DNA of 64,000 bases, from positions 62,001 to 126,000 of the forward strand of contig NC_044283.2 of assembly GCF_004027225.2 (NCBI RefSeq), read 5' to 3'. A model generated the notes under the pieces. That model made no database searches, was not told where the DNA came from, and worked only from the letters and a program-made list of their open reading frames with translations. Positions 1 to 54,902 of this stretch are shown piece after piece. Source of the stretch: Strigops habroptila. Its lineage: Eukaryota; Chordata; Aves; Psittaciformes; Psittacidae. Position 1 is the first letter of the stretch; each line of letters begins with the position of its first letter. The position numbers were made by a program, and so were the translations under genes.

Positions 1-1
1 T

Positions 2-3000
2 GACTGGGTGGCTGAGATAAACCGGCAAGCCTTGGAGCCAGGTAGGTGATGAACTCACACCGTGCAGCATCCATCAATCCCTCAGTCCCTCTGGAGCGGC
101 TCTGCTGGGAGCTCAGTGGGTGAGGGAGCCCCTTGTCTGTGTGCTGTGGGTGCTGTGGCTGGTGCAGCAGCAGGTCTGTGGTCCATGTGCTGCATCCCAG
201 TGTGGGTTTCCTTGGCTGGCAGTGTGGGAGCTGGGCACGATTCGGCTCTGGACGAGGGGCTCAGCCAGGGGCGAGCTTGGTGCTGTGCAGTGTTTGCCTC
301 TGCAGAGCCTGTGGCCTCGCCACCCCGGAGGCCTGGGCTTCCGAGCACAGAGCCATGCAAAGCCTGTGGTCCTGCAGGCTCAGAGGTGGAGCTGCCCAGT
401 GTGGCCACCCCATGGTGCTACCCTGCGGGCACCAGGCTTTATGTGGGTGCCCCCCTGCTCCTTTCTGCCAGGAGGAAAGACCCCGGGACACGCCAGAGTC
501 AGCCTCAAGGAAGGAGCGCAGCTGGAGCCTGGCACAGTGGGACAGGACGTCCTGCCCGACCCCCTGCCCCACGGCTCTGTTCCTGGTGGGACGGGCCAGC
601 ATGGCCCAGAGCCGTGTGGCACGGCACCAGAGGAGGGGAGGAGGAAGGTGACCTTGGAGCCTGAGCGGGACAGTAGGAGCAGGACCCGTGCTGGTGGTCA
701 GCCCAGCCCTGCACGGGACAGGGACCAGCTCACCACAGGGAGCACAGAGAGCTGCGAGCCCGCCTCTGCTCTGCCCAGCGCAGCTGGGACTTCCCAGTCC
801 ACAGGAGCCCCAGAGGCTACCGAGACCCTCCACAGCCCAGGGCCCCCCATGTGCTGCAGCGATGGGACCAGCACTGCCCAGAACCTTCTGCCCACTGGTG
901 ATGCCAGGACAGGGGGTGGCAGCTCACCCCAGCCCTGCAGCAGCACCCAGCCTGAGGCCAGTAGGGCTGATATGCCCCAGACACGCTCAGGGCCTGGGGC
1001 TGCTGCCAGCCCAGTCCCCCCAGCACTGGTCATTACTGAGGGTGGTGCCAGCCCAGTCCCCCCAGCACCGCTCATTGATGGGGCTGGTGCCAGCCCTGGC
1101 CCCACAGCATCATTGACCCCAGAGGAGGCCAGGTCCAGCCCCATGTCCCTGCTGACCCTGGAGGAGGCTGTGTCTGGCCCCACGGTAGCACTGACTCCCA
1201 AGGAGGCCAGGACTAGCCCCACAGCACCGGTGACCCCAGAGAAGGCTGGGTCTGTTCCTATAGCACCACTGACCCCAGAGAAGCGCAGGTCCAGCCCCAC
1301 GGCACCACTGATGCCAGACGAGCCCAGGTCCAGCCCCACGGTACTTTTGACCCCAGAGGAGCCCATGTCCAGCCCCACGGCACCGCTGACCCCAGAGGAG
1401 CCCAGGTCCAGCCCCACGGCACCACTGACCCCAGAGGAGCCCAGGCCCAGCCCCACGGCACCGCTGACTCTGGGGGAGGTTCGGATGCTGGTGGAGCTCT
1501 TCTACCTGCCCTATCACCATGGGCCGCTGGCGCAGCATCTCCTGGAGCACTTTCAGTGGCTCCAGGCAAACAGCCTCAGCGTGGGGGTCTCTGCCGCGGC
1601 ACCCAGCGCCGGTGCGGTGAGTGCTGGGGCTGCCGCGTGTCGCGGCTCTGTGCCACGGCCGCGGTGACGCCTGCTGTGCCTACAGGGCCGGTGGCGCAGC
1701 CGAGCACAGTCCTTCGCGCGGCTCTGCACCCAGACCTGCCGCCTGCACGTGCGTCTGGTGGGTGCTGCTGGGCGGGCGCTGCTGTACGACCTGCACCCCT
1801 ACCTCTGGGACATCCGCAACGTGCTGCTGGCCGCCAGCGCCTTCATCCAGTGGCTGGGTATGTGGTGGGGCCAGCCCCAAGACGGCACCTGCGGGAGTGT
1901 GGGGCCCCTGGGCACTGCGGGCACCCGAGCTTTTTCTGTGGTGGTCCACTGCTCCCCCATACGAGTGACAGTGCCTGGGGCTCCCCCCCAGAGGTCTGGG
2001 GTCCCTGTGTCCAGCCAGGGTCCCTTCTGGGGTGCACCTCCCCTAGAGACCGTCCCCAGCGTGCCGTGCTCAGCGCCTCTCCTCCTTTGCAGATGGCCAT
2101 CTGCTCTGCGAGCCTGGCCCCAGGGGCACCTGGGGGAGCTGCTTTGGCTGTAAGTACTGGCGCTCCCTGGCTCTCCCCCTGGCGGGGGGCCCTGGTGCTG
2201 CCCTCGGGCCCCCCCAGCCCCGCGACAGCAGCAACACTCGCCACGGGGGTGCCCTATCCCATGCTCTGCCTGCCGAGTGCAGTGGGAATGGCCATGGGAA
2301 GCCTGGCACCCCCCCCACGTGCCCTGGCACACCAAGGCAGGATGGGGCACTGCTGCTGGGGACAGGGCAGTCACCGGAGCAGCTCTGCACCATCTCTCAC
2401 AGTCCGGAAGGAATGCCTATTTCTAGGACATGGTTCCTCAGCCCTTTGGATCCAGGGACCCCTTAGCCTTTCCGGTAAAAGGGATCCATGGGCTATTGAG
2501 AGCAGAAGTTTCCTCGGTGACATAGGCAAGATTGGATTTTGAATGCCTGTGCCTCACTTTGGAAGCCCCTGTTCTGTTGATTCAGGGTTACCTGGCTGTT
2601 CTGTGGCCCTTGTGACCTCTTACAAACCAGGAGCTGTTACCAGATGACAACCTAAGAGGGTCTCCAGTTCCATGTGGGATGGAGCCATGTGCCTTAAGCC
2701 ACTTCCACGGGGTAGCAGTTGCACGCAGGGCGAGTTCCCGCAGGCACTGCAGAGCTGGCTGGGCAGCAGTAGCCAGGAGCTGTGTCTTTACCTGACACAT
2801 TCATGGAGGCAAGATCATTCCTTTCCCCATTCCCACTCCAAGCCCTGTTGTGGAGAGTGTGCTGTACCCCAGTGCATGGCGAGCTCCTGGGCTGCACAGT
2901 GACCAGGGTGGATTGTGACGGTGCTGTGTGACAGAGGCTGATCTCCCCCCGGCCCAGCAGGTTTTTGTTCACCTCCTGTGTCTGTTTCCTGCTGCCTCCA

Positions 3001-6000
3001 GGGTGCCAGAGCATCACGGCCCCGATCCTGCTGCAGGGGGATGCTGAGCCCTGGGCACAGCGCGGGGGCCTCTTTGGAGAGCTGCAGGTGAGAGGATGCC
3101 CATTGCTGGGGGACTGGAGGAGCCTTGGGAAGCGGGATCCCACTTGTTGCTCCTGCCTGGAGCCTTGGGAAGCATGGTCCCAGCTGCTGCTTCTGGCCTG
3201 GCACTGGGCTGCTACAAGGGAAGTCAGAGCTGCCCTGGGCCTCTGTGCCTTGGCTGCAACTCCTGGGGTTCAGGGTGCTCAGAGGGACCCTCCTGCTGCT
3301 GCTCAGGACAAGGTTTGGAGCCAGGAGGACCCACTCCATTGGGGACTGTCTCTTCCAGGCGCTGCTGCCTGTGGGGAACAGCTCTGACCTCTTCTACCAG
3401 CCACCTCCGCTCTTCCCGTCCCGCCAGCTCTATGTCCTGCGCCCGCTGCTGCCCCAGGACAAGGTGGGAGCCGCAGAATAAGGGGCAGACAGAGCTCAGC
3501 TCTGTGAGCCTGTGCTGCACATGTCTAATGCGAGATGTGCTCGCCTGCTGCGGGCCGGGGCTGAGCTGCAGTGCAGGCAATGCGGGTGGAAGGGACCGCT
3601 GAGCAGGCCAGGGCTGGGGCAGGGCACCAGGGCTGGGGCAGGGCAGCCCCCAGGATGCAGAGTGGGTGATGTGGCCAGGGCAGGGCAGACATGAGCCCCA
3701 GGTGAACTGGCCCCGACATGGGATGCCAGGATTCATGGGTGGTCTCCAGAGCACCCCCAGTGCTGAGCTCCAGCGGTGGCTGCAAGCAGATGCCAGGAAA
3801 GATCCAGAACAGAACAAGTCTGGATGGTGACCTCCTGCAGCCTTCAGCAGCCTGCAGCTCTGGCACTGCCTGAGCCTGTTGAGGTTCAGCTCCGAATCAG
3901 TCCCTTCTTCAGATGCCCACCCAGTTGAGAGGATGATTCCCCACTGGAAGGGCAGCAGCCTCTGTCAATTGTGAGCAGCGTGCTGCCCCCTCGCTCCATT
4001 TCCACCCCAGCAGTTCGATGGGATGGGGAGGGAAAGGGAGAATTTGGAGGTGGGTGGACATCCAAGTTAAACTGCTGTCAAACGCAGCAGAGCCCTGGGT
4101 TCCCCATACAGCACAGAGCCTGCAGCAGGCCCCCCACTCCCTCGCCCTGCTGCCTCTGCCAGCGAAAGGAAATGCAATCGCTGCAAATCCAGCATCATGG
4201 ACACAATCACAGGACCCGGCAGTGCTCAGCTGGGCGCTTGTAAACAGCAGAGGAGGAGCTGCCAGCACACGAGAGCAGAGCACAAGAGCAGACTGCCCCT
4301 GTCAGCATGTCCCATTGCAAGAGCTTGTTTCCAACTGCCTGTTGTCAGATTTCATCTGATTGGGCTGAACTTCAACAACCTGAATGTCTGTGTCCAGTGA
4401 AACTGAGGGAAAAAGCGCAGCTGAACAGCCCGTGGTGGGAATGGTGCTGGGAAGCGCTCCCGCTGTCCTGCCGTGTCGCTCCGTGCTGCGGCAGCCCTTC
4501 CCTGGGGAAGCAACGCTTCTGTCAGGATGTGCCTTTCACTGGTCCTGTGAGCAGCAGCGATCTTGAATCTGGCCGAGATAGGAGGTCCCGAGATGTCCCA
4601 CTTTGAGCATGCTCTGAGCAGGCTCGAGTTCTAGTCCTGGTGTCGCTGCTGCTCTGAGCATGCTCCCTCCCTGGCGAGCCGCATTTCCATCAGCTGGTCC
4701 CCCAGGATGCCTGCCTGGAATGGCGGTTTCCCATTCTGAAGTGTTGGTGTGCTGGGATAAGGAGCCCCAGAGGCCAGCAGAAGGTGGTGCACTGTGCATC
4801 ACTGGGTGCAGACCCCAGCACCCTTGGATGCTGAGGCACATACCTCCATATACCTTCCCCTGGTCACGAGGCACTGGAGGGCACAGGCCTGGTCATGGTC
4901 CCTCTCTGTGGTCAGTTTGGGAAGCTGATGGCACACAGTGCTCTGTCGGGGGCTGTGGTGGGGCAGCTGAGGAGCAGCAGTGGGGCAGGGACCGGGCGGC
5001 AGAGCCAGCACTGAGGTGGGTCTGGTTCTTCCAGGGAGAGCTTTACCGCATGTGCCGGGAGGGTCTGGACTGTGACCCCAAAGTCGCAGAGATCCTTGTG
5101 GCCCACCCCGACCTGCTCGGTGACAGGTAAGACGTGGTCCCTCTGCGTGTGCCCAGCCCAGCCACGTGCTGGGTGATGCTGGGCTGTGGTGTGATGCAGT
5201 TGCCGCTTGCATCCTTGTGGGGCCCAGCTCTGCCATGGCTGGCGGTGGCCTCACCAGGGGCTGGGAGAGCCGTCCCTTTGCCAATGCCCAGATGGGTTGT
5301 GGGAATGGACCCACTGCCATGGCTCCCCTTGGCTGAGGGCTTCTGCTGGCGGCCTCAAAGGGATGTTCTGGGGCATGGGGTGCTGTCCCGCAGGGCAGGA
5401 GGGAGGAGGTTGGCTGGTCTGAGCTCTCCCCAGGTCAGGCTGGGCTCCCGTGGCAGCTCGGTGGAGTTCTGCTCTGGCTGCAGGCTGCTGGGCAGCTTCC
5501 TGAGCCTGAGCCCCGAGTACACATTTGTGCTGGAGGATGAGGCTGGTCCCTGTGGCTACGCTGCCGGTGCACTCTGCGCTGAAGGCTTCCTGCAGCAGCG
5601 AGACCACGGCTGGCTGCCAGCCATGCGGCACAAGTACCCCCGGGACCTGGCCACAGGAGCCCCGGCTCTGGGCCAGGTGAGGGAGCTCCTGGAGTGGAGG
5701 GGAGTGGGTTTGGGGATGGGGGGTCCCTCACTGCACTTGTCTCCCACAGGATGCCCTGGAGGAAGCGCTGCTCTTCTTCCACACAGAGCCAGCGGCCGTG
5801 CCCCTGCCTGTGCTGCGGCGCTTCCCCTCCCTGGTGCAGCTGGGCACGGCCACACGCACGCTGGACGCGGGGGCCAGCCGCAGCCTGGCCCTCTGCCTGC
5901 TGAGCGCGCTCAGGGCCAATGGTGAGCATCCCCCTGTGTGCCCTCATCCAACGTCATCCCCACTGCTCCCTGGCCCACCCCAGAGCTGGGAGCTGGCCCT

Positions 6001-6408
6001 GCCTGCACCCCACCTCTCAGCACCACCCAGGTGCCCTCACCGGGGCTCCACATCCCCTCAATAGCACAGTCTGGCCCCAGCTCCCAGGCACCGTGCCCTC
6101 CCCTTGCACCAAGGGACACAGGCACTTGTGCCTTGGGGCATCACACAGGCACCCAGTGCCAAAGGGCAGTGCAGAGGTTGACCTTCTCATGGAGGGGGTC
6201 CCAGCCACTGGCCCCGAGCCCCAGTGCTGGGATCGCAGTGCCAGGGGCCTGACCCCACACCTCCCTTCCAGGGTCGCGGGGAGTGTTTTGCCAGGTCAGT
6301 GCCGCCGACCAGCAGCAGCTGAGCTTCTACAGCAAGCTGGGCTTCGTCGCCCTGCCAGTGGCCTGGGACGGTTGTCCCGGTGCTTGGCTCCTGGGACGTC
6401 TCCTCTGA
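2..6408 (+). CDS. Protein O-GlcNAcase paralogue (OGA-like), 3' part
   Basis: Paralogue of OGA, the nuclear and cytosolic enzyme that removes O-GlcNAc from Ser/Thr. Exons: 2-41 (partial), 472-1616, 1686-1857, 3002-3087, 3359-3463, 5035-5126, 5484-5676, 5750-5921, 6272-6408. All have GT-AG ends and matching phases and give 713 codons to a TGA at 6406. The first residues (DWVAEI) match the end of the OGA catalytic region. The 1145-nt exon is a proline-rich linker ending in the stalk motif ELFYLPYHHGP...FQWLQANS. Then come GRWRSR, LLYDLHPYLWDI, DAEPWAQRGGLFGELQ, DLFYQPPPLFPS, EYTFVLEDE and the last-exon FYSKLG, all strong OGA landmarks of the stalk and pseudo-acetyltransferase domain. The GH84 catalytic domain is outside the window, so activity cannot be judged. 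Many substitutions against human OGA argue for a paralogue rather than OGA itself. Family assignment is firm; paralogue status is inference. Confidence 0.88.
1093..1475 (+). repeat. Coding 39-bp tandem repeats in OGA-like linker
   Basis: About ten 13-residue units of the form TPEEPRSSPTAPL, nearly identical at 1,330-1,475 and progressively degenerate toward the 5' side. The whole block stays in frame within the large linker exon and runs directly into the stalk domain. The repeats keep the opposite strand open as well, which produces long spurious antisense ORFs. The linker of OGA is known to be disordered; this repeat expansion is not something I recall from OGA. Confidence 0.85.
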
Positions 6409-6965: not shown

Positions 6966-6971
6966 AATAAA
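6966..6971 (+). terminator. Poly(A) signal of the OGA-like gene
   Basis: Canonical AATAAA 558 nt after the stop codon, followed by a T/G-rich stretch. It implies a 3' UTR of about 0.57 kb. Confidence 0.75.
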
Positions 6972-7258: not shown

Positions 7259-7319
7259 TGCTGCGGCCTCTGGAAGAGTGCTGGGAGAGAGAGATGGAAG
7301 GATCAATCCGTCACTGAGG

Positions 7320-13884: not shown

Positions 13885-16800
13885 ATGGGGACCTGCCGCG
13901 GGTGGGCACAACCGGAGCTGCTGGTGCTCAGCGTGTGGCTGTGGGTGAGCAGCGCCGGCCCCACGCACCCGCCCGGCCCTGCACTGAGGGTGCGCCTGGC
14001 TGGGTACCCGCGCAAGCACAACGAGGGCCGCGTCGAACTCTTCTACAACGATGAGTGGGGCACCATCTGCGATGACGACTTCACGCTGGCCAACGCACAC
14101 GTGCTGTGCCGGCACCTCGGCTTCGTGGCTGCCACCGGCTGGGCCCACAGCGCCAAGTACGGCAAAGGCGTCGGTAAGAGTGGGGCGGTGGGCACGGCCC
14201 CCTGTGCTGCACAGGCTGGGGCTGCACATGAGCCTGCTGCCACAGGGCTGTGCGTGTGCCGCAGCTCACATGTGCTGCTGGTGGGGCAGGGCAAGCAGGT
14301 CCTGTGCTGAGTGCCCAGCAGTGTGTGTGTGCGTGTGTGAGTGCACATGTGCATGTATGCACATGCAAAGTGGGATGGGAAACTGCGTGTGAGCTGCTGT
14401 GCATGTACCCAGGGCACAGGGCGGTTGCAGGGGGTGCAGGTCCAGGTCTGTGTGGTGCAGAGGTGCAGCCATGTGTGCTGCAGACGAGACGCTGTACAGA
14501 CCCCAGCTGCATGTGGCGTGGGGTCTGCAGAGCAGCCCCGTGGGGAAGTAGAACCTCCCTCTCAGGGCTTTACTCCGGGCATTTCACCGGCCTCAGCTTC
14601 ATGCTGAGGGAGGGATGGTCCCAGCCCAGCACCCACCAGCATCCACGCTCTGCTGTGCACCTTGGCCATGCTCCATGGGCACCCTCCCTGCTCCCGGGGG
14701 ATGCTGCTTGGGCTGGCCCCGCCTCACCCCGGCCCTGGTGTCTGGCAGGGCGGATCTGGCTGGACAACGTGAATTGCGCTGGAGGCGAGAAGAGCATTCG
14801 GGACTGCAAACACCGGGGCTGGGGCAACAGTGACTGCAGCCATGAGGAAGACGCGGGTGTCATCTGCAAGGACGAGCGCATCCCAGGCTTCAAGGACTCC
14901 AATGTCATCGAGGTGAGGAAACTGCGGGTCAGGACCCCTCAGAGTCAGCAGATGAGGCTCTGCTCAGGATGTGGCCTGGGTGTGGGGACATGGCACAACT
15001 CTGGGCAGGGGATGGCTGGTCTGCCAGGCAAGAGGAGCTGAGGCCATGTCCCACTGGCTGTGCCCAGGTTCCCGGCTTTGCTCTGGGTGGGTGTCTGGGT
15101 GTGGGGTGGATGCAGGATCCTGAGGTGACAGGACGCTCCCAGGAGGTGCACCCAGGGGGATGTGGGGCACTGGGTGCACAGTACGGGAGTAGGAGCATGG
15201 CCATCCAAGGACGTGCCCTGCAGGAATGCAGGACCTGGCCATCCCTGCTCCCCACCTGGGGCTGGGGACCCCATCTCCTGTGGGTGCCTGCATCCTCAGA
15301 GCACCCGTGGGCAGGGGCTGGGGCAGTGGGTGCGGTACTGACCCATGCCCTGCAGACAGAGCAGAGCCATGTGGAGGAGGTCCGGCTGCGGGCGGTGGTG
15401 GCTGGGGCCCAGCGGCAGCTCCCAGTGACAGAGGGCATCGTGGAGGTGCGCTACAAGGACAGCTGGGCACAGATCTGCGATGAGGGCTGGGGCAGCCACA
15501 ACAGCCGCGTTGTCTGCGGCATGCTGGGCTTCCCTGCCGAGAAGAAGGTCAACAGGAACTTCTACAAGTGAGTGAGGCTGACAAGGAGCCTGCGGGGCTG
15601 GGGACAGTGCCAGGGACATGGGGCAGTGCTGGGGGACAGCAGGGGACAGCTGGCCATAGGGGCACTCACTAACCAAGCTGAGGGCCATGGTGTGGCTGGG
15701 GGGCCATGGCTGCCCATCTGCCCGTGCACTGTTGCAGAGGCTGCTTCAAGAGGGCAGCGTCTGCACCAAGGCAGTGCTGCTCCTCTACAGTTCCCTCCAG
15801 AGTGGAGTGTGGGAGTCCCTGTCCGGAAGGGAGGTTTGCAGCCAAGCCAGGCAGGGATGCTCCAGCAGCATCACGGCCTGAGCAAGGACTGCAGGGACAT
15901 GGACAAGAACACGGTGCCCGTTGCGGTGCCCGTTGTGGTGCCTGTGTGGTGCCCGGCATGGTGCCCAGCATGGTGTGCTGACCGGGCAGCTCTGGTGTTG
16001 CTCCCACAGGCGGGTGAAACATGCAGCCAGGACAAAGGGCTGGAGCCTGAGGCCAGGCAGGAGGTAACGGGCCGGGGCAGCTGCCTGCCGAGCCCTTGGC
16101 AGAGCTGGGCTGTCCGGCCATGCCGGTCTCCGCCATCGAGACGGATCCTGGCACAAGGGGATCCGGGCGGAGCAGACCGAGGGCTCGGGCTGTGCTGGGC
16201 AGGCAAGACACGGTGGGACCTCTGCCCATGCGTGCTGCGGTCCCCGTCCCTCAGGAGAGACAATCTTCCTCCCAGGCCGGCCATGCCCCAGGCTCAGCAG
16301 CACCCACCCCATGCACCAGGCAGGAGCCCTGGCACAGTGGCAGGATCCTTAGGCAGGATCCCTGGAGGTGTAGAGGGCTGCAGGGTCTGTGTGGGGAGCC
16401 TCGGGGCGGAGCTGTGTCTCCTGGTGGATGGGGAGAGCTGTGGCAATGGGCTGCTTTCTGTGGAAAGCAGCAGTGGGGAAGCTGGAACGGCTGCACACCC
16501 TCCATTCCGTGCAGGAGGGCTGGCAGCACTGCTGAGCAAGTGCTGGGCACCAGGGTGATGGACATCACAGTGCTCGCAGTGCTGGCACCCATGTAGCAGC
16601 TCTTGTCCTGAGTGCTGCATCTGCTCGGGATCTCTTGCACCCTCTGCCCATTCACTCTTGCTGCTTTTCTGCCAGTCCCAAGGGATACTCTGGCTGCCGT
16701 TTCCCCTCCACCAAGAAACCTGGAGAGAGGCTTTGGACAAGGGCCTGTAGGGACAGGACAAGGGGGATGGCTTTAACCTGCCAGAGGGGAGATTGAGATG

Positions 16801-32066: not shown

Positions 32067-32092
32067 GCTGCTGTGGGGCTCACGTGCCGCCC

Positions 32093-32250
32093 CGCCGCGG
32101 GGTACGCCGGGACCTGTAGTCCCGAGGCGGAAGTCTGCCGGAAGCTGTAGTCCCGCCGCAGGGCACGCTGGGAGATGTAGTTCCGAGGCGGAAGTCTGCC
32201 GGAAGCTGTCCTCCCGCCGCGGGGCACTCTGGGAGCTGTAGTCCCGCCAC
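32093..32250. repeat. 61-bp tandem promoter module, about 2.6 copies
   Basis: Copies begin at 32,093, 32,154 and 32,215 (exact 61-bp spacing). Each carries the reverse complement of ACTACANNTCCCAG followed by a GC-rich tail, the ZNF143/SBS consensus; the middle copy is the best match. The first two copies are each followed by two GGAAG (ETS) cores in GCGGAAGTCTGCCGGAAGC. Confidence 0.85.
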
Positions 32251-38500: not shown

Positions 38501-41500
38501 GGCACATGATATTCCCAGCTCCTGGTCCTTTATGCACTCCATGCAGGCTCTGGAGAAATCAGTTCCCAGTCCTCTTGCCCTTGCTGTGGCTCCACACAGG
38601 CCTGTACATGTGCTACACTCCCCTGCAAGCTGGGAATGCTGGGGTCATACGTGTTGTGTGTCATGTACATGTGCCTCTTCTCTGCACCTGTGCAGCTCTT
38701 GGCCATGGAGCTGGGTGTGGTATCCACACGGCTCACGGCAGCAGACAGAACCGAGCACATGAAGAGGCTGAGACACACATCGCTGCTCCCCTTCGCCCCA
38801 GGTGGGTGTCCTGGGTCGCGTCCTCACTAGGGAACCGCCTTCAGAGAGGCCTCAGGCTGCTCTTGGTTACTCGTGCGTGGAGGGAGAGGAGGAGGCATGT
38901 TGGGGAGCAGGGGCTGCGGGTGTGCTCGGGGCTGGGGTTGGAGCTGGCTGGCAGGGCGAGCACCGCTGCTCCTGTGTGCAGACGTGGTGGCTGTGTGCAG
39001 GACGTGCAGCTTGCTTACCCTGCCAGCTCGTGCCGGAGCAAGCGGAGCTGTGGCAGCTCAAAGGCCACCCTGTTGTTGCAGCCCCAAGCCAGGCGCTGGC
39101 AGCGCGGCACCGGGTGCCGTCCAGCCTGGCGGGAGCTCCCGAGGACGTGCGCGTCGCGGCGATGGTGCGGCAGGTCAAGGAGGTGCTGCCTCACGTGCCT
39201 CTGGAGGTCATCAGGATAGACCTGGGTAAGCCATGCCCAGGGACACAGTGTCACCTTCCACGCTGTCTCTGTGATACCTGAGAGCGGAAACCGTGTCCCT
39301 GCTGCACCGTGGAGCACAAGGGCAGCAAGGGTGTGAGCGTCCGGGTGCGGTAGCTCCCTCTCTAACAGATCCTCTTGTCCCTACAGCCCAAACCAACTGT
39401 GTGGACACCACCATTGCCAACTTGCTGGAGGGGAGAGTATCCTTCTTCCCTGACAGTAAGGAGGCTGGTACTGACCTGCCCGCCCCAGCTACCTCCCAGG
39501 CTCCAGCTGCTTCTGGCATCCAGGGCTCCGCAGCTGAGCCTTCTTCCAAGGTACTTCTGGTGGTTGCGTTGTCTCTTCTGATGGCTTGTAGCCACAGCAC
39601 GATGGCCTGTGTCCTGCACTAGCCATGGGGTCAGGGAATGGAGCATTCTAAAGTGGAGGCTGACCTGGCATTGCAGAGCCGCTGGGGAGCTCCGTGGGCT
39701 CTGACCGTGTGCTGATGGCTCCTGTGCTCTGTGTTGCAGGCAGCTGCAAAGCAGTTTGCCAAGTCCCCTGTGGAGCGGCACCTGTCCCTGCAGGAGCGGA
39801 AGCGAGCGCTCTACGACTACGCCAGGAGGTGAGAGCCCCCCCCGGCCCTGGCAGAGCCCCCACACCCCCCAGCAGCACCCGGGTACCCCCGGCAAGGGCC
39901 GGCCCTGCTGGGCCTCATGTCCTCTGGCCCAGGAGCACGGGGCTGGGCAGAGGGAGGTGGCAGAGCTTTGTCCGCATCCCCTTGTCATTCCTGGGAAGTG
40001 CTCCCGGATCGTTACTGTGCTTCTGCGTTTGGGCCTAGGTGGGATTGAAGCTGTTTGCCCGAAGCTGCTGAGGAGCAGGCTTAGCAAAAACCCTCAGTTG
40101 TTCTTTGGTGCAAGGGATTTGTTTGATAGGAGCCACTGTGGACCTATAGATTTCTTTGCAATGAGTATTCATGCTCTGGACACTCATTTCAGACAGGAGT
40201 TGGCTGTTTGGCAGCAGGGACGGTGCAGTTCAGGTTCCTCAGTGTAAGTGGAGAAGTGCAGGGACCAGGGAGCGAGTCTGACCCTGTGTGGGGTTTTGAT
40301 GAGGCACATCCTGGAGCCAGCGTCCTGTTCTGGTGTAGAGGAGACACAGGAAATTCAGGCAGTTTGCCTGGGTCCGGAGTACACATTGCTCTGTGGGAAG
40401 GGGAGAACCAGTCTGGTGCTCCAGGAGTCAGGAGAAGGTTGCAGAGGTTCAGGGATCAGATAGACCTTTGAGATCAGCTTCTCTCTGCTACTGAGAGAAG
40501 GAAATTCCCGTGTCCGGAAACTGAAGCGAGGCAAATCCTCAGTGCCCGTTTCTAAAGGGCTGCTCCGAGGTGGCTCTGGGTAGCTCTTGGTCACCAAGGA
40601 CTTGGTTCAAACAGCTCTGTTTTTCTGTAAGATCACTGCAGTTTAGAGGAGTTTCATCTCCGCATAGTCCTGTGCCATAGACAATGTTAGACTGAGCTCA
40701 GAGCTGTCCCCCAAGCCTGATGGGAGCGTGGAGGTGCTGGGGGCTGGATCCACCGGGCGTGAGCTGTTCAGCAGCAAAGAAAAGAGGGTGGGAATCCTTT
40801 CCTGTGGATACCCAACCTGGCTTCCTTGCTGCTCTGCATGACCCTTTCCTGAGGCTCTTCTGCCTGCTGGCTGTGGAATAGCGATCTCTGCTTCTGAGGG
40901 AGGAGGGGATCCCAGCAGGATTTGGGAAGGTGCTCGTGCTCCTCCATGTCTGTACTCCGAAAGGGCCGTCCGTGCTGTGCCAGCCTCGGAGCAGGCGTGT
41001 GTCTGCCTGGGGTTCCCAGTGGCAGCAGCCACGCATCACTCGGCGGTTCAGGCTCAGCTCGGGGCTCCCGAGTGCTGCTCTCACCCGGCAGCTCCGGCAT
41101 TCCCAGCACGAGGCGGCTGTTCCCCGCCGGGGCTCTGCTTTGTTCTCACCCAGCCCCTTCCCACACCAACCCAAGCTGGTGTGTGTCAGCTCGGGGGGTG
41201 GGTGCGGGGGGGGGGTCCTGCAGTGTCACCGCTCCTTCTGCCCTCCCCCATGGAGCCTGTCCTTGCTCCAGCCTGGGGCGCTGTGCGTGCCTCCGTCCCG
41301 GGAGCCGGGCTGGGACCTGGCCTTGCCAGGCTTGTCCCCGGTAGTGCCCGTGTTCAGATGCGGGCCTGGTTGGAACCGCGCCCGGGTTCGCCGCGGCTTC
41401 CCGGGCTCTGGGCGAGCTGGGGCCGGGCCCGGGCCCTGCTTGGGGAGCACCGGGTGTGGGGAGGTGTCACCTCAGCGGGCCCGGCCCGCCGTGCGCGCCC

Positions 41501-42130: not shown

Positions 42131-43689
42131 TCCCGAGCGGGCAGCGGGGGCCGGGTCACTGGGGTCCCGGTGGGTGCCGAGCGGACACCAGAGGGATGGG
42201 GGAGTGCGGGTCCCGGGGATCCCGGTTGGGCCGGTGTGACCCGGGGGGTCTGGGTCACTGGGGAGCCCGAGAGTCCTGGGTGGGCTGGCACAGGGCGGGG
42301 GTTAGGTTAACAGGGGTCCCTGCGGGGCTGACGTGCCCCGAGGTCCGGGACAATGGAGAGCCCGGGGCTCAAGGGCAGGCTGGTTCCATGGGGGTCCCGG
42401 TGGGCTGATGTGCACCGGGGAGGGTGGTGGGAGGTCAGTGGGGGTCCCGGGCTGATGGGCATTGCAGGGGTCCCGGGGGAGCGGGGCACGCCGCGGGGCA
42501 GCCCTGGGCAGACGCGCGTGCGCATGACACCCCAGGTTGGAGATAGTGCTTGGTGGTCCCTGGGCAGTGGTGCTGGATGCACCGGGGGGGTCAGAGCAGG
42601 GTGCGGGTGGGCGCGGGGCCGGAGCCGGGCTGACAGCCCCTGCAGGCTCCTGGGTGGAGCTGCGCTGCGGCCCCGGGGGCCCCGAGCCCGAGCCCTCGCG
42701 GCTCTCCTCCTGCCACGCCGACGTGGAGCGGATGCTGCTGGAGGCCCAGCTGGAGACCGAGAGCGGTGACAGGTGAGTCCCGGGGCTGAGCCGAGCACCG
42801 GGGGCCGAGGGGTGGCACAGGCCTGGTGACCGGGGGTCTCTTTGCAGTGCGCTGCTCCTGCTGGGCTCCCCAGCCTGGGATGACGATGGAGCTGGTCCGG
42901 CCAGCGAGCGGCCTGGAGACAGCAACCTGCGGCCTCCCTGCAGCCAGCCCCAGCCAGGCTGCCTGCACCCCCGGCAGGTGAGGGAGCTGCGCCGTGCCCT
43001 GTGCCATGCCGTGTGCTCTGCTGTGCCCGCTGTGCCCCTGGTCTTACTTGCTCTGTGCCTCTTTCTAGCAGGATGTGCCAGAGGAAGCCAAGCGGAGGGA
43101 GCGCCGCCTGCCAGCATCCCTCAGCTGGGCCTGCGCCCGCCACCCTCGGCATCTCTCTCCAAAGTAAGGCCGTGTCCCCCGGCAGCATGTGCTGTTGTCC
43201 CCTGTCCTGCACCCTCTCGCGGTGCTCTGTCCTCCCTTCCCTGTTAACCGTGCGCTTTTCCCAGGGAGTTTGCCTTTGTGTGCTCCCCGCAGCCGGTGCT
43301 GTGGAGCCTGCAGGGAGGAGCAGTGGGGAGAAAGAAGAAACTGTTCAGTTCAGAGCTGCTGCTGCTCTTCATCCCCTCGCTGCTGCTCAGCCACGTGCTG
43401 ACGCTGGGGCTCGGGTGAGTTTCTGATGGGCCTGATCTGGGCTTGGGTGCGGGCAGGGTGAGCCCTGAGCTGAGGGGTGTCTGCTGCCTGGGGGCCCCTG
43501 GCTGGCCTGACCTGGGAGGCTGCCCTGATGGAGCGGGGCTGGGGGCACACTCCTGGGTGTGGAGTGCTCATCCTTGGGCGCTGCTCTGAGCAGCCACAGC
43601 GTCCCTGCAGGGTCACTTACAGCCTCTCTCTCCAACCCAGGATCTACATTGGGAAGCGACTGGCAGCCTCCTCAGCCAACCCACTGTGA
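42079..43689 (+). CDS. BNIP3/BNIP3L-family mitophagy receptor, third paralogue
   Basis: Tail-anchored outer mitochondrial membrane protein of the BNIP3/NIX family. Six exons: 42079-42100, 42646-42772, 42848-42977, 43072-43163, 43265-43414, 43641-43689; 189 aa, against 194 and 219 for human BNIP3 and BNIP3L. The LC3-interacting motif is at residues 10-13 (WVEL in GSWVEL), at the family position. CHADVERMLLEAQLE matches the conserved GDMEKILLDAQHE block. The segment before KEF is where the weak BH3-like region lies in BNIP3, but the SDW..DWSSRPENIPP signature is largely lost. The membrane segment SLLLSHVLTLGLGIYIGKRL keeps the dimer histidine (His167) and the glycines at +7 and +11; Thr replaces Ala at +3. 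The first donor, GTCCGT, is weak. It is more diverged than BNIP3 or BNIP3L, hence a separate paralogue; fish have one called bnip4, as I recall. Confidence 0.87.
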
Positions 43690-45000: not shown

Positions 45001-45068
45001 GCACAGCGGAGCGGGGTCACTGCGGGGTTTTCCATCCCTGGGCAGATGGGGCCGCTGCGGGCACCGGC

Positions 45069-48000
45069 TCAGAGGTGTGACAGGCGCTTGGACTTGGGCG
45101 GCGGCGGCGGCGGCGGCGACTTCGGGCTTTTGTTTCCATCCGCTGTGGGTGATGTGGTCACCTGCCAGTGGATGGGGCCGTTACCAGAGACTGGGGCCGT
45201 TACCGGGGGTGGGGCGGGGGCGCCGGGGCGGGCCGGGTGGTACCTTCCCTGCAGCAGCATCACTGGGCTCCAGGAAGGTCTCGTACACGGCGGGGCTGAT
45301 CTTGCGGGGCAGCGGCGGCGCTTTGCTGGCGCTCTTCACGCGGCCCCCGAAGCCGGTGGGGGACGGGGACGGGGACGGCCCTGCGGGGGGTGCGGGGGTC
45401 ACCCAGCGGGGAGCCTGCGGGGCCCGTGTGGGTGCCCAGGGCTGCCAGGGCCAGCTCCCTCCCGCCTGTGGGGCTGCAGTGCGGTCGGGTGCGAGCCAGC
45501 CGCGAGAGGCGAGCTGGCTCCTGCTGTGAGCTCAGCCCAGCACCAAGACCTGTCAGCACAAGGTCTGGGATCAACAATGCTCCGCGGGAAGCATTGGGTG
45601 GGAGACACTGGAGCCGCGTGGGATCTGCCTGTGCTCTTGGTACCCAGCGCTCCCTGCCTGCAGCGTCCTGCGGAGCCGGGCGAGGGGCTGAGGGTGCCTG
45701 TGCGGGGGATGCTCGTACCGCTCTGCTGGGGCAGGGGCACAGCCCTGCTCACGCCTATGGGGCTGCAGGGCCGGGGTTGGGGCGGTACCTGTGGGGCTGG
45801 GCTGGGCGCCGGCGCGGCTCAGCCCCGGCTGCTTCCCGGCGGAGCTGCTCTCGCCGATGTTGCTGGAGAGTCTCCGCTTCTCGTCCTGGGGTGCAGAGGG
45901 AGGTTCAGCACCGCGGGGGGGCACGGGCGGCATCGCAGGAGCCTCTGGCAGGGCTGGTGCTCCCCAGTAGCCCTGGGCTCCTGCCCTGTGCCCCCCACCC
46001 GCTGCTCCTGCCACCAGCACCCCGAGTCCCACCCGTGCTGGGGTCCCCGGTGCTGCAGGAGAGGGAACCCGGGAGGAGGGGAGGCACCGGGGCTGTGCTG
46101 AGCATCACCTTGGGCTCCGGCAGCTCCGAGATGGACTGGCGCAGGTCCTGCCACCGGTGCCCGAAGAAGATGCTGGAGCGGTTTTCCCTGCGCTCAGTCC
46201 TGCGCTCATCACTCTCGGTGGGTTTTGGAGTCGGGGAGGGCTCCATTCTGGGGAGCATTGGGGCTGGTCAGGGGCGGGCGGCAGGGGACGGGGAGCAGGG
46301 CTATGGCGTGCGCCAGCCAGACCCAGCACCGTCTCCACATGGGCCAGCAGGGATGGCTCAGGTGCCAGGGGAGCCTGGGGGCTGCACTCGGGGTGTCTCT
46401 GCTCCGTGCCCCCCACGTGGTGGCAGGACGAGCCCTCGGGATGTGCCTGGAGCACGGCAGTGGTCTGGGCAGAGGGGGGTGAGGGCGGCTCAGGGGCAGC
46501 AGGGAGGGGTGAGGGCGGGGGGGGGGGCTCGGGGCCGGTGCTCCCACCACAGCACTTGCCTGTCCTCACAGTGGCTCAGCCGGTCCCAGTCGGGGCCCCA
46601 GGCCATGGACCGGGGACGTCCGGTGCGCTGGTCCTCAAAGCAGACCTGAGGGCACAGGGAGAGGGGAGGGATGGGAGCGCAGAGCCCCCCGCGTCTGCCC
46701 TTGCTCTGCCGGGGCAGCAGCGCCCTCTGCCTGGGCTTGTGCCACCCCCCTAGGGCTGTCCCCCACCCAGGTCCCCCACACAGAGCCCCTCACCCTGTTG
46801 CAGCTCCAGCCCTGCAGGTTGGTCCCTGCTGCCCCAGACCTGCGCTGGCCTGCCCGGTGTCACCCGTGGGTGCCGTGCTCAGCACCCGGCACTCACCATC
46901 TCCCGCACCCCGTACTGGCTCTCCACCTTGGCCCGCAGCTGCACAAAGCACTGCTCCATGCGCTCGTGGAAGGGCCACAGGTCCTCTGTCACCTTCTGCC
47001 CGTGGAGCCGGATACCCTCTGCCAGAAGCGGCACCTGTGGGAGGACAGGGACAGGTCCACCAGGGTTGTGGGGTCCCCGGGCTGGGGACATTGGGGCCAG
47101 AGGGGTGCTGCGTGCTGTACCTGCCAGGCGATCAGGTCCTTCAGCTTCTCGATGTTCTCCTCATCCTCAGGGTGCTCCTGCAGGTAGGACTCCTGGAAAA
47201 AGGCCTGCAAGGAGCTGGCTCAGCACCACCGAGGGGCTGGCTCAGCCCCACACAGGCAGGGGACAGATCAGCACCCATGTCCTCACCGTCTCGTACTTGG
47301 CAAAGCCCCCCATGACAGCAGGGTCTACGATGCCGCTGAGCAGCATGGAAAGCGGGTTGATGGGCAGGCCGGGGTCCTGCTGGTGCCGGTTGATCTCGCT
47401 CATGATCTTCTCATTGGTTTTCATCATGGTCTCGATGGCGTTTTCCAGCGGGGAGATGATGGTCTGCGCCCGGGAGGGGAGGTCACAGCCACCTGCCCAG
47501 TGACCTGCCTGGCCTGGGCAGGGTGGCAGCGAGGGCCCTCCCCAGCCCCAGGGCTGCTCATCTCATGCCACGACACCCCTTGGCCACTGGCACCAGCTCC
47601 TGGAGCCGAGCTGAGGGCTCAGGAGGAGGTGCTGGAAGTGCTGGTCCTGGCGTGGAGCAGAGGCTGCAGCAGGGCCAGTCCTGCAGGCAAGAGGCTGCAG
47701 GCCAGGAGGTGGACGTGGCAGCGCTCGTGCAGCCCCTGCGCTCAGCACACCCGTAACAGCCCAGCCAGGGCATTCCTGTGTCCTCATCCCACAGCGCCTG
47801 ACCCGCGCTGGGCACCTCCCCTGACAGGGCTGTGAAACCCACACATGGAGCTGCTGGAACTCCTCCAGCGCCGCTGCTGCTCCCACACGAGGTCTCCTGC
47901 TCCCCACGGAGGAGATGGGCCCCGCGGTGGGTGAGCCCACAGACCGGGCCCTGTCACCGGGTCCGTGCTACCGGCACCAGCCGGGGAGCGCCGGGGGGTC

Positions 48001-51000
48001 TCCGTGCCCACGGTCAGCAGCGACCCCTCCCTGTGGCCGGGGTACGTGGCCTGGGACAGCATTCCCTGCGGCACTGGCCCAAGGTCAGCCCTGGGGCAGG
48101 GGGGGTCAAGGCGATGCCAAAGGGGGGTCATCCCCAGTGACCGGCAGCGGTGGCAGCCAGGCTCTGTGCTCGCACCCGCTCTTGCAGGCAGAGCTGGACC
48201 CGCTCTTCCGCTGGCACTGATCTGAGCCCCGCGCACAAAGCACCACAGGAGCAAGCTGGGAGCTCGGGGGCTTGAGTGCTGGGGGGCTGGCTGGGTCTGG
48301 TTTGCACCGAGAGCCGGGGCTGGCGGGGCAGGGGCAGGGGCAGGACACGCTCCTGCACCCGGGCTCAAGCTGCTGGAAGGGGGGAGGAGGGGGTCAGCAC
48401 CCCCGCCTGGGTCTGTGTGATGCAGTGGGGGAGGAATGCCCTGGGAGGGTCCCGCTGCCCCCGAACCCCCTCACCGTGGTGGTGGAGGTCACTGCGAACC
48501 ACCGGAGGATGCCGGGCAGGGGATAGGCTGTCAGGAAGGTCGTCCGCTCAATCCACATGTTCTGTGGGAAGGGATGGGGTCGTCCCAGCACCCTGGGACA
48601 ACCCATGGGGCAGGGGGCTCCCACCTCCCTGCCCCATGGGCATGGGACCACCACTGCCTCCACTCCATCCCTCCCCTCATCTCCCTTTCACCCCCCTCCT
48701 CTGGACACTTGGCTCCTCACAGGCCCCCCTGGCCGGGGTCCCACAGCACTCACTGCAAACTCATTGTCTGGGTCCTTTGGGCCTTTCTTGAAGGGCCGTG
48801 AGTAGTTGAACCTCTGGACGTGGTTGGCCCTGTAGAAACTGGAGGGCGGGAAGGGCAGACAGTGGGAGAGGTCCGTGTTTGCCCCTTCCCACGTGGAGCA
48901 GGGCGGGAGCAGCCACTCCGTGCCAGGACACTCACTTGGTGATCTGCTCGGGGATGCTCCGGTCCTTGAACCGGCCCTTGGCTTCCTCCGCTGGCTGCAC
49001 GGTGAAACACTGGATGTCTGCGGGAGTGAAGGAGCCACCAGCACCACGTGGGGACACGTGGGGCTGTGTGAGGGCACCCACATGGGGGCAATGGCCCAAG
49101 AACCAGCCCTCCCGCCAAGTCCCTGCTAAGAGAATCCCTCCCGCCCAGCCCATGCTTGGAGGATACACTGTCCTGGGGAGCTGGTGATGTCCTGCCCGGG
49201 GGGACACGTGCTCTTGAGCCTCTCGGCGCTGGGGAAGGGGCTCAGCAGCCGCAGCTCAAAGTCCTCCCGGCGCTCGTACTCCTTGCCCCGGTAGATGAAG
49301 ACCTTGTTCTGCAGGGGGGGAGGAGGTGGCCTGTCCCTTCTGAGAAAAACATTGCCCCACACCCAGCAGCAGGGGGAGAAAGGAATTGAGGCATGTGGAG
49401 GTGATGGGTGAAGCCAACACAGCCTCACTAAGGGCAAACCGTGCCTGCCAAATCTGGCGGCCTCCTGTGACAGGGTTACAGTGTTGGTGGATAAGGGAAA
49501 GGCAACTGACATCAACTGACTGGCCTTGTTCAAGGCATGTGGCACTGTCCTGCACAGCACCCTTGTTTCTAAGCTGGAGAAACAAGGATTTAATGGATGG
49601 ACCACTCTGTAGATAAGGAACTGGCTGGACAGTCGCGTTCAAAGAGTAGAGCTGTTGGAATGAGTCCAGAGGAGGCCACCGAGATGGCCTCCAGAGGGGC
49701 TACAGAAAACCTGGAGAGGGGCTTTAGCCAAGAGCCTGCAAGGACAGGACAAGGGGGAGCCTGCCAGAGGGAGATTGAGATAAGCCCATGAGAAGGGGCA
49801 GGGCTGGGACCCGCGGCACCCCCGGCTCCTGTGGCCGCAGCACGGGGACACTCACCCTCAGGAACGGGGGGAAGCCCTGCCCATAATAGCCCACAGCGAA
49901 GTAATCCGGGCTGGGCCGCAGCACCTTCAGGATCTTCTCGTAGAACCCGGCTTCCCGCTGCTGCAGGAGAGGGGCAGGAATGGGGACAGGATGGAACCGG
50001 CCATGGAGCAGGAGCACTGCAGCCCCCCCCCCCCGGCTCTTAGCTGATGTCACTCACCAGGATGTCGCTCAGCAGCTCGTAGTCAAAGACCTCGCTCTCG
50101 TACTGCTCCGCCAGCTCCTTGCAGATGTGGATGGCCTCTTCCCACATCTGCAGGAGATGGAGCTGGGGGTGAGCTGGAGCAGGGGACACTGGGGCTTCCA
50201 GAGGAGACCAGCCCCATCTGCAGTGAGGGTGGGGGGCTAGTCGTCCAGCTGGGTACAGGTGGCAGCAGCAGGACTTGGCTTCCCACCATCTCCAGCCCTT
50301 GAGCCCCCCAGCACGGGCAATCCTGCTCCTGGGGTGTCCCAGCTGCTGGCCCCAGGCAGTACGAGGGCTGGGGGCTGAGACTGCATGGGATACGATGGGA
50401 CGGAATGAGGTGGGATTGGATGGGATGGGACAGGATGGAACAGAATGGAGTGGGATGAGAGGGGGTGGGTAAGGGTGGGATGGGGTGGAAAGGGAGAGGG
50501 TGGGGTAGGATGGTGGCACAGGGGGAAGCACAGCCTCAGCAGCTGGGCGGTGTGGGTGAACCGTCCATCCCGGGCTCGCTGCAGGGCAGCTCCAGCCCCA
50601 CCACAGCGGTGGGGAGGAAGGTTGGGCCGGGATGGGGCTGGGGGCTCAGAGCGGGAGGCAGCGGTGGGCAGGGACACCCGTGTGGCAGCAGGAGGGGGCA
50701 GCCGCGGCACGGCCGTGCTCACCTTGCCCTGGTCGAAGTAGCGGATGATCTGGTTGTAAAGCGCCTCCTTGAGCTGGCGCTGGGTGCGCAGCCCGGGCCC
50801 GTGCGCGCCCTGCACCGGCGCCGTGGTCGCCTCGTCCGACCACTGCAAGGAGCAGCGGGACCCCGTCAGGCCGAGTCCCGGCGGCCCCGCGGCCCTGCGG
50901 CCCCTGTGCCCACCTTGAGCAGCCGCGCGTGCAGCAGCAGCGTGTAGGCGCCCTCCGTGTAGTTCTCGTAGCTGATGTGCAGGTCCCTCAGCTTGTACAG

Positions 51001-54000
51001 GTACCTGGGAGCGAGGGCGCGGGGGGCAGCCCCGCACACGCCCCTCGTCAGCTCCTGCATCCCCACCCGAGTCCCGCGGCCGCGCAGTGACGGGCAGGGG
51101 CAGCCCCAGGACCCTCACCCCGGCCATCCTCTCCCCGGCCGTGCTCACCTGATGTACATGGCCTGGCGGCCGATCTCCTTGTAGAAGTTCTGGGAAGAGC
51201 AGACGAGGCCATTTGAGTGGTCCCGGGAGAGGCCGATGCCCCCACCCCCCCACCCCCCATGTGCTGTGCTGGGTCATGGTGCTGCTGGGACCGTCCCCAC
51301 CGGCTCAGACCCACATGGTGCCTCCCAGCAGCTGCCTCCCAGCAGCTGCCTGCCAGGGGCACCGGGTCTGGCACCGTGCACACCCCATCCCCGCTGTGCC
51401 GGGGGCCCAGGGGAGATGTGGGGCTGAGCCCTGGGGTGGGAGGCACGGGGCAGGTGCCCACCAGCAGGTTGACAGTGCAGATCATGCTGTAGGTCTTGTT
51501 CTCATCGTTCCTCACGGCCCGGTAGTCGAGGAGCCGCTCCAGGAGCCCCGTCACCAGCGCCACAAAGCTCTGCCCAGGCTTGGCCAGCTCGCGGTGTCCC
51601 TGGCAGCAGCTCAGCAGGCTGGGGAGGGCAGGAGGTGATGGTGTCACTGTGCTCAGCCACGGCCCTGCTCCCTGCACTGCGGAGAGGGGGGGCAGGAGGG
51701 GCAGCAGCAAGAGAGAGCAAACCCCGTGCTCATGGAGGAGAGAGCTGAGAGCTTCATCTGCCTGGCACATGGGTCTGTGATGGGCATCACAGGGCAGGAG
51801 CAAGGCCTGGGCAGGGCAGGGGCATTGCTGGGGCAGAAGCGATTGCTGGGTCAGGGGCATTGCTGGGGCAGGGGCATTGCCGGGGCAGCAGTGGTGTGCA
51901 AGGGGCACATAATGCTGCTGGGGCAGGAGTTTTCCTCCCCCCAGGTCCCACCCCAGGTCAGAGCACACTGGGGAGCAGGCTGGCTGAGGCGGTGTGGGGC
52001 TCAGGAGGACAGCAGAGGCTCAGGGGGGCTGTGGGGATATCCCTGCACACTCACATGCTCTCGAAAAGCTGCTTGTACTGCTCGTCACCACGGCCACCCT
52101 CCACCTCAGTGTCCAAGTGCCGCAGGATCTCATCCTCGAACTGCAGAGACGCGTGTGAGCAGCACCGGGAGCTGGGATGTGTGGCGCTGGGGCCGTGGGG
52201 CTGCAGCACTGGGGAAGGAGGCTCCCAACAGCCCCAGGCTCAGCCACTGCAGCCCCTTCCCCAAGGACTCCCGGCACTGAGGGGTCCCTGTCCCCCCGCC
52301 CTGCTGTGGGTGGGTCCCCCACACTGCCCCGGCATGGACAGGACCTCATCCTGCTCTCTGCTCACTCACTTTCTCCCCAGTCCCAGTCCCGCTCCTGTAT
52401 GAGCCCTATAGAATCATAGAATGGTTTGGGTTGGAAAGGACCTTAAGCTCATCCAGTTCCAGTCCCCTGCCATGGGCAGGGAGCCCTCACATCAGGCCAT
52501 ATTGCCCAAGACTCTGTCCAACCTGGCCTTGAACACTGCCAGGGATGGGGCAGTCACAGCTTCTCTGGGCACCCTGTGCCAGCGCCTCAGCACCCTCACA
52601 GGGAAGAGCTTCTGCCTCAGAGCTCATCTCAATCTCCCCTCGGGCAGGTTAAAGCCATTCCCCTTGGCCTGTCCCTACAGGCCCTTGTCCAAAGCCCCTC
52701 TCCAGGTTTCCTGGAGCCCCTTTAGGCACTGGAGCTGCTCTAAGGTCTCCCCTTCAGGAGCCTTCTCTTCTCCAGGCTGCCCCAGCCCAGCTCTCTCAGC
52801 CTGGCTCCAGAGCAGAGCTGCTCCAGCCCTCGCAGCATCTCTATGTCCCTCCCTGCTGCAGCCCCACACCTATGATGAGAGCAGGAGGTTCAGCATCAAC
52901 TCCACCACCCCAGGAGGGATGGTCCCGCGGGTGAGCGGCAGGGTCCAGCGCCAGCACCCACCTGGGCAAAGCTGCGGGTGAGCTGGTACTCGCAGAGCAT
53001 CATATCGAAGAAGATGGGGATGGTGGCCTTGCGCAGCTCCGGCTCCGGCACCAGCGTCATCTCCAGGATGGGGCCCACCATGCCTGGGATGAACTCAATC
53101 TTGTGGGGGCCTGGGAATGGGAATGGGATTGGGAATGGAAAAGGGAAAGAGAAGGCCAGGCTGTGGGCAGACACCAGCCCAGAGAGGAGGGACTGCCTGC
53201 AGGGAGTGAGGGCTCAAAGCTGGTCACAGTGCTGTGGGCTCAGTCACCACAGCTTTGCATGGCTGCAGATGGCACATCCCACAGGCTCACACATCCCTCC
53301 CTGCACATCCCAGAGCATCCCACAGGCTCACTCATCCCTCTCTGCATACACCAGAGCATTCCCCAGGCTCTCACGTCTGCTGAGCCTCATCCCTGCTGGC
53401 TCGCACACCCTGCTTATGCCTGCAGCCCCGATGCCTCCCACTGGGAGCATCCCACCCCCCAGCACCATTGCAGGGGAAGTGCTGGTGACCGCCAGCCCAC
53501 AGACCCTCGCCAAGCCCCCATGGCCACGCCGTGGCTCACCGAGGTTGTACCACATGTCCCGAATGGAAGCTCCAATGGTGGCTCTCATGTCCCCGTACCT
53601 GCCAGGACAGCTTTGGTCAGCACAGCGCTGCAGCCGGGCGCAGCACCCAGAGTAGGATGTGATCCAAGCACAGCCCAACCAGCTCACACCAAACCCTGGC
53701 CCCACAGCGGAGCAGCCAGGGGGGACAGCGCCCGAAGTGGAGCTAGAGAGCCCAGCCCCACGGTGCTGCCACAGGGCAGGGGCAGCTGGAGGAGCTGAGG
53801 GCAACTCACTTGGCCAGGATGCTGCTGCGCTTGGCCTGGGAGAAATTTTCCAGCTGTAGCGAGTCCTGGGTCAGGAAAGCCACGGCCAAGTGGAAATAGT
53901 TGTTCCAAAGCTGCAGTGGGGACAGGGCAGGGGTGGCACAAGGGGCCGGGGGCAGCGTCGGGGAAATGCCAGGTCCCCTCGCCCTTGGCTGGAGCAGCGC

Positions 54001-54902
54001 CGCTCACCTGCAGCTCGAAGCTGTCGTCGCTCAGGAACATCTCTGTCAGGGTGGTGGCAAACTGGTTGATGGTGCGCAGGAACTCCCTGTGGGTGACGGG
54101 GACAGTGGCTCTGCCTGCCCCACTGCTGCTGCACTGGCCCTGTGCAAGGGCATCCCCCCGGTGCCATGGGGTGTCCAGCAACAGCTCCCCACTGCCCCGG
54201 GAGCCCCCAGGCCCACTGATGGGGCTGCAGCTGGGGCTGGACTGTCCCAGGGCAGAGCAGAAGGCATCCAGAGCTGCCCTGAGCTGGACCCAGGGTGCTG
54301 GAGGGGGCTTGGAGGGGGCTGAGTGAGCCTTAGGCTCCGTGCTCCGGTGTCTGGGTGCCCTGTGCCCCAGTGAGGTGCCCCAGGTCCAACATCCCCACAT
54401 GGGCCCCTGCGAGCCCAGGGGTCCTCACCGGTTCTGCACCATGTTCATCACCATCCAGTCAGACGGGTACACTGTCTTGCCAATCAGGTCCTTGAAGAGG
54501 ATGAAGGTCTCCATGAGGAAATCCTGCCGGGAAGGAGATGTCAGGAGCTGGGCTCGACCCTGATGCCCTCCTGGGGTGATGCTGTGCTGGGTGCCAGGGC
54601 TGGGAGCAGCCTCACCACCCACCAGCTTCACCTCCATGGAGCAGGGATTAGGGCTCTGCCGGGGCTCAGGGCGGGTGGCACTGGTGCTGGGTACCCAGAT
54701 ACAGGCACTGGGACCAGTGGGATGCCCCAGCCAAGACATGGGGTGGAGAGACAGGGGGTGCCCCTGATGGAGGGCCCGGCTCACTGTGTGGGGCAGCACT
54801 CACCATCAGCTCGGCCCGGGAGGGGAACGCCTTGATATAGGAGCTGTAATGGTCCATGTCCATCTGGCTCAGGATGGCAGCCATGCAGGCCACGTAGTGA
54901 CT
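45069..54902 (-). CDS. DOCK-A family Rac exchange factor (DOCK1/2/5-related), C-terminal half
   Basis: Rac guanine-nucleotide exchange factor. Exon pieces (5' to 3'): 54902-54804, 54523-54429, 54086-54008, 53910-53810, 53598-53540, 53110-52962, 52140-52055, 51618-51462, 51189-51149, 51004-50914, 50842-50723, 50147-50058, 49960-49856, 49308-49167, 49017-48936, 48838-48754, 48561-48475, 47463-47287, 47204-47121, 47034-46897, 46645-46560, 46247-46109, 45885-45789, 45380-45244, 45161-45069. All phases agree: 873 codons with stop. It contains [19 protein letters not shown], and the full DHR-2 catalytic region ([52 protein letters not shown]). The C-terminus has proline-rich motifs ([16 protein letters not shown]) of the type that bind CRK. 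It feels closest to DOCK2. No exon for the SH3 or DHR-1 regions was found to 64,000. Confidence 0.9.
49385..49790 (+). mobile_element. CR1 LINE with reverse-transcriptase segment
   Basis: Antisense within a DOCK-like intron. The left part (49,470-49,640) matches the CR1 ORF2 stretch around GTTGGTGGATAAGGGAAAGG and GGATTTAATGGATGGACCAC. It jumps to 3'-end sequence (GAGGAGGCCACCGAGATGGC, GGACAGGACAAGGGGGAGCC), so the copy has an internal deletion. It is too decayed to code. Confidence 0.8.
50380..50512. repeat. GGGAT-rich simple repeat
   Basis: Irregular array of GGGAT/GGAAT/GGGTA units in a DOCK-like intron. A shorter (GGGAT)n run occurs at 21,308-21,332, between the two alternative LOXL3 exons. 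Confidence 0.75.
52405..52870 (-). mobile_element. CR1 LINE 3' fragment, reverse orientation
   Basis: The cleanest copy in the window. The + strand begins TAGAATCATAGAATGGTTTG and GGTTGGAAAGGACCTTAAGC, then GTCCAACCTGGCCTTGAACA, TCTCTGGGCACCCTGTGCCA, CCTTGGCCTGTCCCTACAGG and CTTCTCTTCTCCAGGCTGCC. Low divergence from the remembered consensus suggests a comparatively recent insertion. It lies in a DOCK-like intron. Confidence 0.9.

Follow-up and report, generated by a model that had tools for sequence, protein, structure and literature searches.

The window, by which we mean the whole 64,000-nucleotide stretch of Strigops habroptila DNA that was analysed, carries six genes in the order OGA-like (+), LOXL3 (+), HTRA2 (-), AUP1 (+), BNIP3-like (+) and DOCK-A-like (-), as found by spliced protein-to-DNA alignment with human queries (Table 1). 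All six models are multi-exon and have open frames, with neither frameshifts nor in-frame stops, and their spliced scores ranged from 187 to 2899. The aligner restricted donors to GT or GC and acceptors to AG. Five of the genes (OGA-like, LOXL, HTRA2, BNIP3-like and DOCK-A-like) were identified from the window proteins alone; the choice of LOXL3 over LOXL2 and the name AUP1 depend on the human sequences used for comparison. The genes are compact and GC-rich, and none of the 60 modelled introns exceeded 3,217 bases. Human DOK1 and PCGF1, tried as possible neighbours, gave best matches in the window at chance level, and an Rfam scan of the whole window returned nothing above the gathering scores. 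Two copies of a CR1-like tail motif were present, with one mismatch each (expected 0.01), which, like the compact GC-rich genes, is in keeping with a bird or another sauropsid.

Table 1. Genes modelled in the window (window coordinates).
Gene	Position	Strand	Model
OGA-like paralogue, 3' half	1041..6405	+	8 exons; disordered linker, stalk, pseudo-HAT; match to human OGA in PDB
LOXL3	13950..23853	+	13 confident exons; another two at the 5' end are uncertain
HTRA2	25952..32144	-	8 exons; two doubtful 5' exons dropped from the model
AUP1	32508..39829	+	11 exons, to the last aligned residue; human query only
BNIP3-family gene, candidate BNIP3L2	42646..43689	+	5 coding exons, the first tentative; WVEL motif, transmembrane helix
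DOCK-A-like gene	46570..54902	-	21 confident exons; DOCK2 residues ~934-1636 (ARM end and DHR-2)

LOXL3, HTRA2 and AUP1 form the conserved core of the locus. The LOXL3 protein was 82.4% identical to human LOXL3 versus 66.0% to LOXL2, in a comparison that covered these two human proteins, and its best PDB match was the lysyl oxidase homologue LOXL2. One LOXL3 exon holds a CAG repeat (18981-19013) that codes for polyglutamine. AUP1 shared 64.1% of its residues with human AUP1. A CpG-rich stretch (31501-33500) spans the 5' ends of the head-to-head genes HTRA2 and AUP1, and is probably their shared promoter. In line with the first-pass annotation, which had read the core as standing in human gene order, the arrangement agrees with the text on the human locus in Wotton et al. 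(2008, PMC2446394) and matches the order known for the Lbx2/Tlx2 locus; in that text, HTRA1 stands in the place of chicken Htra2.

The HTRA2 product scored 499.6 bits against HTRA2 in the PDB search, compared to 378.9 bits against HTRA1 and 371.1 bits against HTRA3, and was 74.7% identical to human HTRA2. Flies have HtrA2/Omi, and HTRA2 probably parted from HTRA1/3/4 before vertebrates arose. Hence, HTRA2 is no marker of vertebrate genome duplication, and the earlier count of HTRA as a fifth family of the paralogon does not hold: at most four families remain.

The core is flanked by an OGA paralogue, a BNIP3-family gene and a DOCK-A gene, as the first-pass annotation had proposed and as our models and PDB and Pfam matches confirmed. 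The human gene list given by Wotton et al. (PMC2446394) names no OGA, BNIP or DOCK gene for this locus, consistent with the claim that this trio is missing from the human block. Compared to the trio, the core orthologues are nearer to their human counterparts than either the OGA pseudo-HAT or the BNIP gene.

The left edge of the window truncates the OGA-like gene, whose GH84 half would fall to the left of base 1; no match to the GH84 catalytic domain was found inside the window. Over the stalk and pseudo-HAT, the protein matched human OGA in the PDB with 331.1 bits (E 1.1e-97). No Pfam family was matched, either by this protein or by the three forward frames of 1-10001 (X at stops), which include the OGA exons; its identity depends on the PDB matches. 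A doubtful exon at 166-186 was excluded from the count. The pseudo-HAT was 41.6% identical to human OGA, while a more distant OGA chain, 6r45, was 29.2% identical to the window protein and 26.2% to the human one. The gene may encode a divergent OGA-type protein. The linker is encoded by a minisatellite (1099-1468) with a 39-base unit in ~9.5 copies, which keeps an open frame and yields 13-residue repeats like TPEEPRSSPTAPL. A further CpG-rich stretch (7501-8500; observed/expected 0.94 and 0.73) lies between this gene and LOXL3, and no gene was identified in it.

The OGA paralogue is not new, as it was already published for chicken in 2008. Wotton et al. (PMC2446394) reported Mgea5 on chicken chromosome 6 plus 'a further Mgea' beside Aup1-Htra2-Loxl3, and in their Table 1 both chicken and teleosts have Mgea2 entered at Lbx2/Tlx2.

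All junctions of the five BNIP exons are canonical, and the last exon closes with a stop codon. Their product scored 84.7 bits against Pfam BNIP3 (cut-off 26), and it retains the WVEL motif, a VERMLLEAQLE stretch that aligns to a motif given in PMC5526904 as MEKILLDAQHE, and LLLSHVLTLGLGIYIGKRL. The features of the family (BNIP3 domain, WVEL LIR and transmembrane helix) are all present, and the LIR and the helix suggest that the gene encodes a mitophagy receptor. Against the human sequences, the protein was 37.5% identical to BNIP3 and 38.5% to NIX, compared to 65.5% between BNIP3 and NIX. Nine residues were shared by the window protein and BNIP3 alone, ten by the window protein and NIX alone, and 56 by BNIP3 and NIX only. 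The gene therefore appears to lie outside the BNIP3/NIX pair at roughly equal distance from each, a position that a long window branch could mimic. A tandem array of a 32-base unit (44846-45001; 4.9 copies, 100% match) falls in the interval that separates the BNIP gene from the confident DOCK exons.

Wu et al. (2017, PMC5526904) described three vertebrate BNIP3 lineages, the third of which, BNIP3L2, was found only in ray-finned fishes and coelacanth. Our gene resembles BNIP3L2 in its BNIP3 domain, WVEL motif, transmembrane helix and position outside BNIP3/NIX, and it may be a tetrapod member of that lineage. It differs from BNIP3L2 as known to date in that it occurs in a sauropsid, adjoining AUP1; the sampling described by Wu et al. 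did include chicken, zebra finch, alligator and turtle, and BNIP3L2 was nonetheless confined to fishes. Zebrafish bnip4 may, at a guess, be the same gene as BNIP3L2. The passages on zebrafish bnip4 in PMC4201762 and on trout bnip3 in PMC6142374 hold nothing on this locus.

The DOCK-A-like protein matched DOCK2 (1055.4 bits) and DOCK5 (1024.8 bits) in the PDB, with DOCK10 of the next family far behind (53.8 bits). Its DHR-2 is close to those of DOCK1, DOCK2 and DOCK5, which a review (PMC8063744) gives as the members of DOCK-A, and the gene product is thus a putative Rac exchange factor. The likeness extends to the ARM/TPR end, lobes A-C of DHR-2 and a 15-residue stretch identical to DOCK2. The gene would be a fourth member of DOCK-A, and the literature naming DOCK among the open-licence papers searched showed no report of a fourth vertebrate gene of this kind; passages on amphioxus Dock1/5 (PMC8805411) hold nothing on this locus. 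Four last 3' exons of the model were not counted. Three extra 5' model exons (55962-60754) aligned no conserved block and were dropped as noise.

Over ~690 aligned residues, the window protein was 67.1% identical to DOCK2, 69.3% to DOCK1 and 65.3% to DOCK5, while the human proteins were 73.8% (DOCK1-DOCK5), 70.3% (DOCK2-DOCK1) and 64.8% (DOCK2-DOCK5) identical to each other. Because the window values overlap that of the AUP1 orthologue, percentage alone cannot part paralogue from orthologue. Raw identity puts the window gene nearest to DOCK1, but DOCK1 has the shortest branch. Sites that split two against two favoured window plus DOCK2 (16) over window plus DOCK5 (8) and window plus DOCK1 (5). 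With one human member per paralogue, and with a provisional DOCK1 sequence, the four-taxon maximum-likelihood tree joined the window gene to DOCK2 and DOCK1 to DOCK5 (support 99.8/100). Both rival quartets were ~28 lnL worse (AU p 0.0006 and 0.0003). In 120 alignments simulated on the rival trees (60 per tree), window plus DOCK2 was the best tree in 18 and 17 cases, with a maximum lead of 2.8 lnL. Since the simulated lead never exceeded this value, branch lengths alone do not yield the observed topology, and long-branch attraction was ruled out as its source.

The quartet itself is undated and fits a duplication at the base of the vertebrates or a later copy of DOCK2 alike. One or more of the trio might therefore be later lineage-specific duplicates, for instance a sauropsid DOCK2 copy, that were relocated next to AUP1 and diverged rapidly. 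Such a copy would likewise give the quartet of window and DOCK2, a high GC content can accelerate sequence change, as seen in AUP1, and there is most room for this explanation in OGA and BNIP, which had no informative quartet. However, the branches of the window gene and of human DOCK2 are both long (0.34 and 0.29), whereas a late copy would need change that is almost all one-sided. Moreover, three unrelated late insertions into exactly the expected paralogon would be a coincidence, and Mgea2 is listed in teleosts too (PMC2446394). We consider late duplication of this kind unlikely.

An ancient origin for the trio is in line with the four Lbx/Tlx paralogons described by Wotton et al. (2008, PMC2446394). 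A chicken contig that they assigned to chromosome 4 unites Aup1, Htra2, Loxl3, the NP620159.2 gene and 'a further Mgea gene', i.e., a second OGA, and in this it resembles our window. Their account differs from ours in that BNIP3 does not occur in the main text and DOCK2 appears there, in five passages, only at Tlx3-type loci. A further difference lies in the gene content of the window. The NP620159.2 gene, which we take to be M1AP, was not found in the window, where a human M1AP query gave spliced scores of 62 and 66, which is chance level.

We consider it likely that the three flanking genes (OGA-like, BNIP3-like and DOCK-A-like) are ancient genome-duplication copies that belong to the Lbx2/Tlx2 paralogon and were lost from human 2p13. 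The window would then be the sauropsid version of this paralogon, one of four copies that arose from two early vertebrate genome duplications, and the trio would be the copies of their families proper to the Lbx2/Tlx2 block. Their sisters would be OGA, BNIP3 and DOCK1 at the Lbx1 locus on human 10q, BNIP3L/NIX and DOCK5 at the Lbx4 remnant on 8p, and DOCK2 at the Tlx3 locus on 5q. The human lineage would have lost all three genes from 2p13. In the published scheme, Lbx2 loci group with Lbx3 and Lbx1 with Lbx4, and DOCK2 lies at the human TLX3 locus and on chicken chromosome 13 (PMC2446394); the DOCK topology, as far as the aligned sequences go, fits this locus pairing. Hence, the paralogon proposed in the first-pass annotation stands in outline, backed by the published Lbx2/Tlx2 region, the DOCK tree and the place of BNIP outside the BNIP3/NIX pair, while its HTRA family and the novelty of its OGA gene fall away.

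An alternative explanation might be that the trio represents the bird's only OGA, BNIP3/NIX or DOCK2, relocated and fast-evolving. This is very improbable if chicken represents our species, since in chicken Mgea5 maps to chromosome 6, and the place of Dock2 on chromosome 13 implies that a bird DOCK2 exists elsewhere (PMC2446394); furthermore, BNIP3 and NIX are treated as present in land vertebrates (PMC5526904). Even less credible is an assembly artefact, or a set of genes in decay that no longer work. It is true that no N-terminal half was seen for DOCK and that the OGA linker consists of tandem repeats, but the 21 DOCK and 5 BNIP exons keep open frames and canonical AG/GT junctions after long divergence, and the window contains no N.

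What is new here, next to an OGA paralogue already known from chicken, is the DOCK-A gene with its topology, the sauropsid BNIP3L2 candidate and the possibility that this DOCK has lost its N-terminal half. With the first two, families that are usually listed from human would gain one DOCK-A gene and one mitophagy receptor of tetrapods. The order proposed for the two vertebrate genome duplications at the Lbx/Tlx loci (PMC2446394) is also put to the test by the DOCK topology, which agrees with it and comes from a family represented in the 2008 text by DOCK2 alone. Should extra O-GlcNAcase, mitophagy and Rac-exchange genes be in use in birds, gene lists based on human would under-describe bird physiology.

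Upstream of the first recognised DOCK exon, no SH3, C2 or DHR-1 exon was seen in 9.1 kb. A tblastn search of 54.7-64 kb with residues 1-975 of DOCK1 and DOCK2 found, for both queries, only the known exon (54804-54902), the next match having an E-value of 0.97, whereas the C-terminal part of DOCK1 gave 18 matches at E<=0.001 on 45-55 kb under identical settings. Pfam matched no family in six frames of 55-64 kb (X at stops), which, in a search run with no positive control, is weak evidence of absence, and the match to TPR_DOCK begins no earlier than position 301 of the 524 in the profile. Since a splice acceptor opens the first recognised exon, there must be some exon upstream of it, coding or not. 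These observations make a half-length DOCK gene that consists of the DHR-2 half a tentative proposal, to which we would give somewhat under an even chance. The plain alternative is a long intron that runs past the window edge; the 9,098 bases between this exon and the window end compare with modelled introns that are all far shorter.

Every DOCK protein has DHR1 and DHR2, and SH3 and ELMO control autoinhibition in DOCK-A/B (PMC8063744). A half-length DOCK, if true, would thus be a real departure, with neither ELMO/SH3 autoinhibition nor phospholipid targeting. Possibly, though we would not wager on the full combination, the locus holds a fourth avian DOCK-A that is the ohnologue sister of DOCK2, lacks SH3, C2 and DHR-1, retains just the ARM end and the Rac-activating DHR-2, has its own CpG-island promoter and stands beside a tetrapod BNIP3L2. 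A CpG-rich stretch at 56001..57500, upstream of the first recognised DOCK exon, is a possible DOCK promoter. Farther upstream of the DOCK gene, a 60-base tandem repeat is present in three copies (62955-63136).
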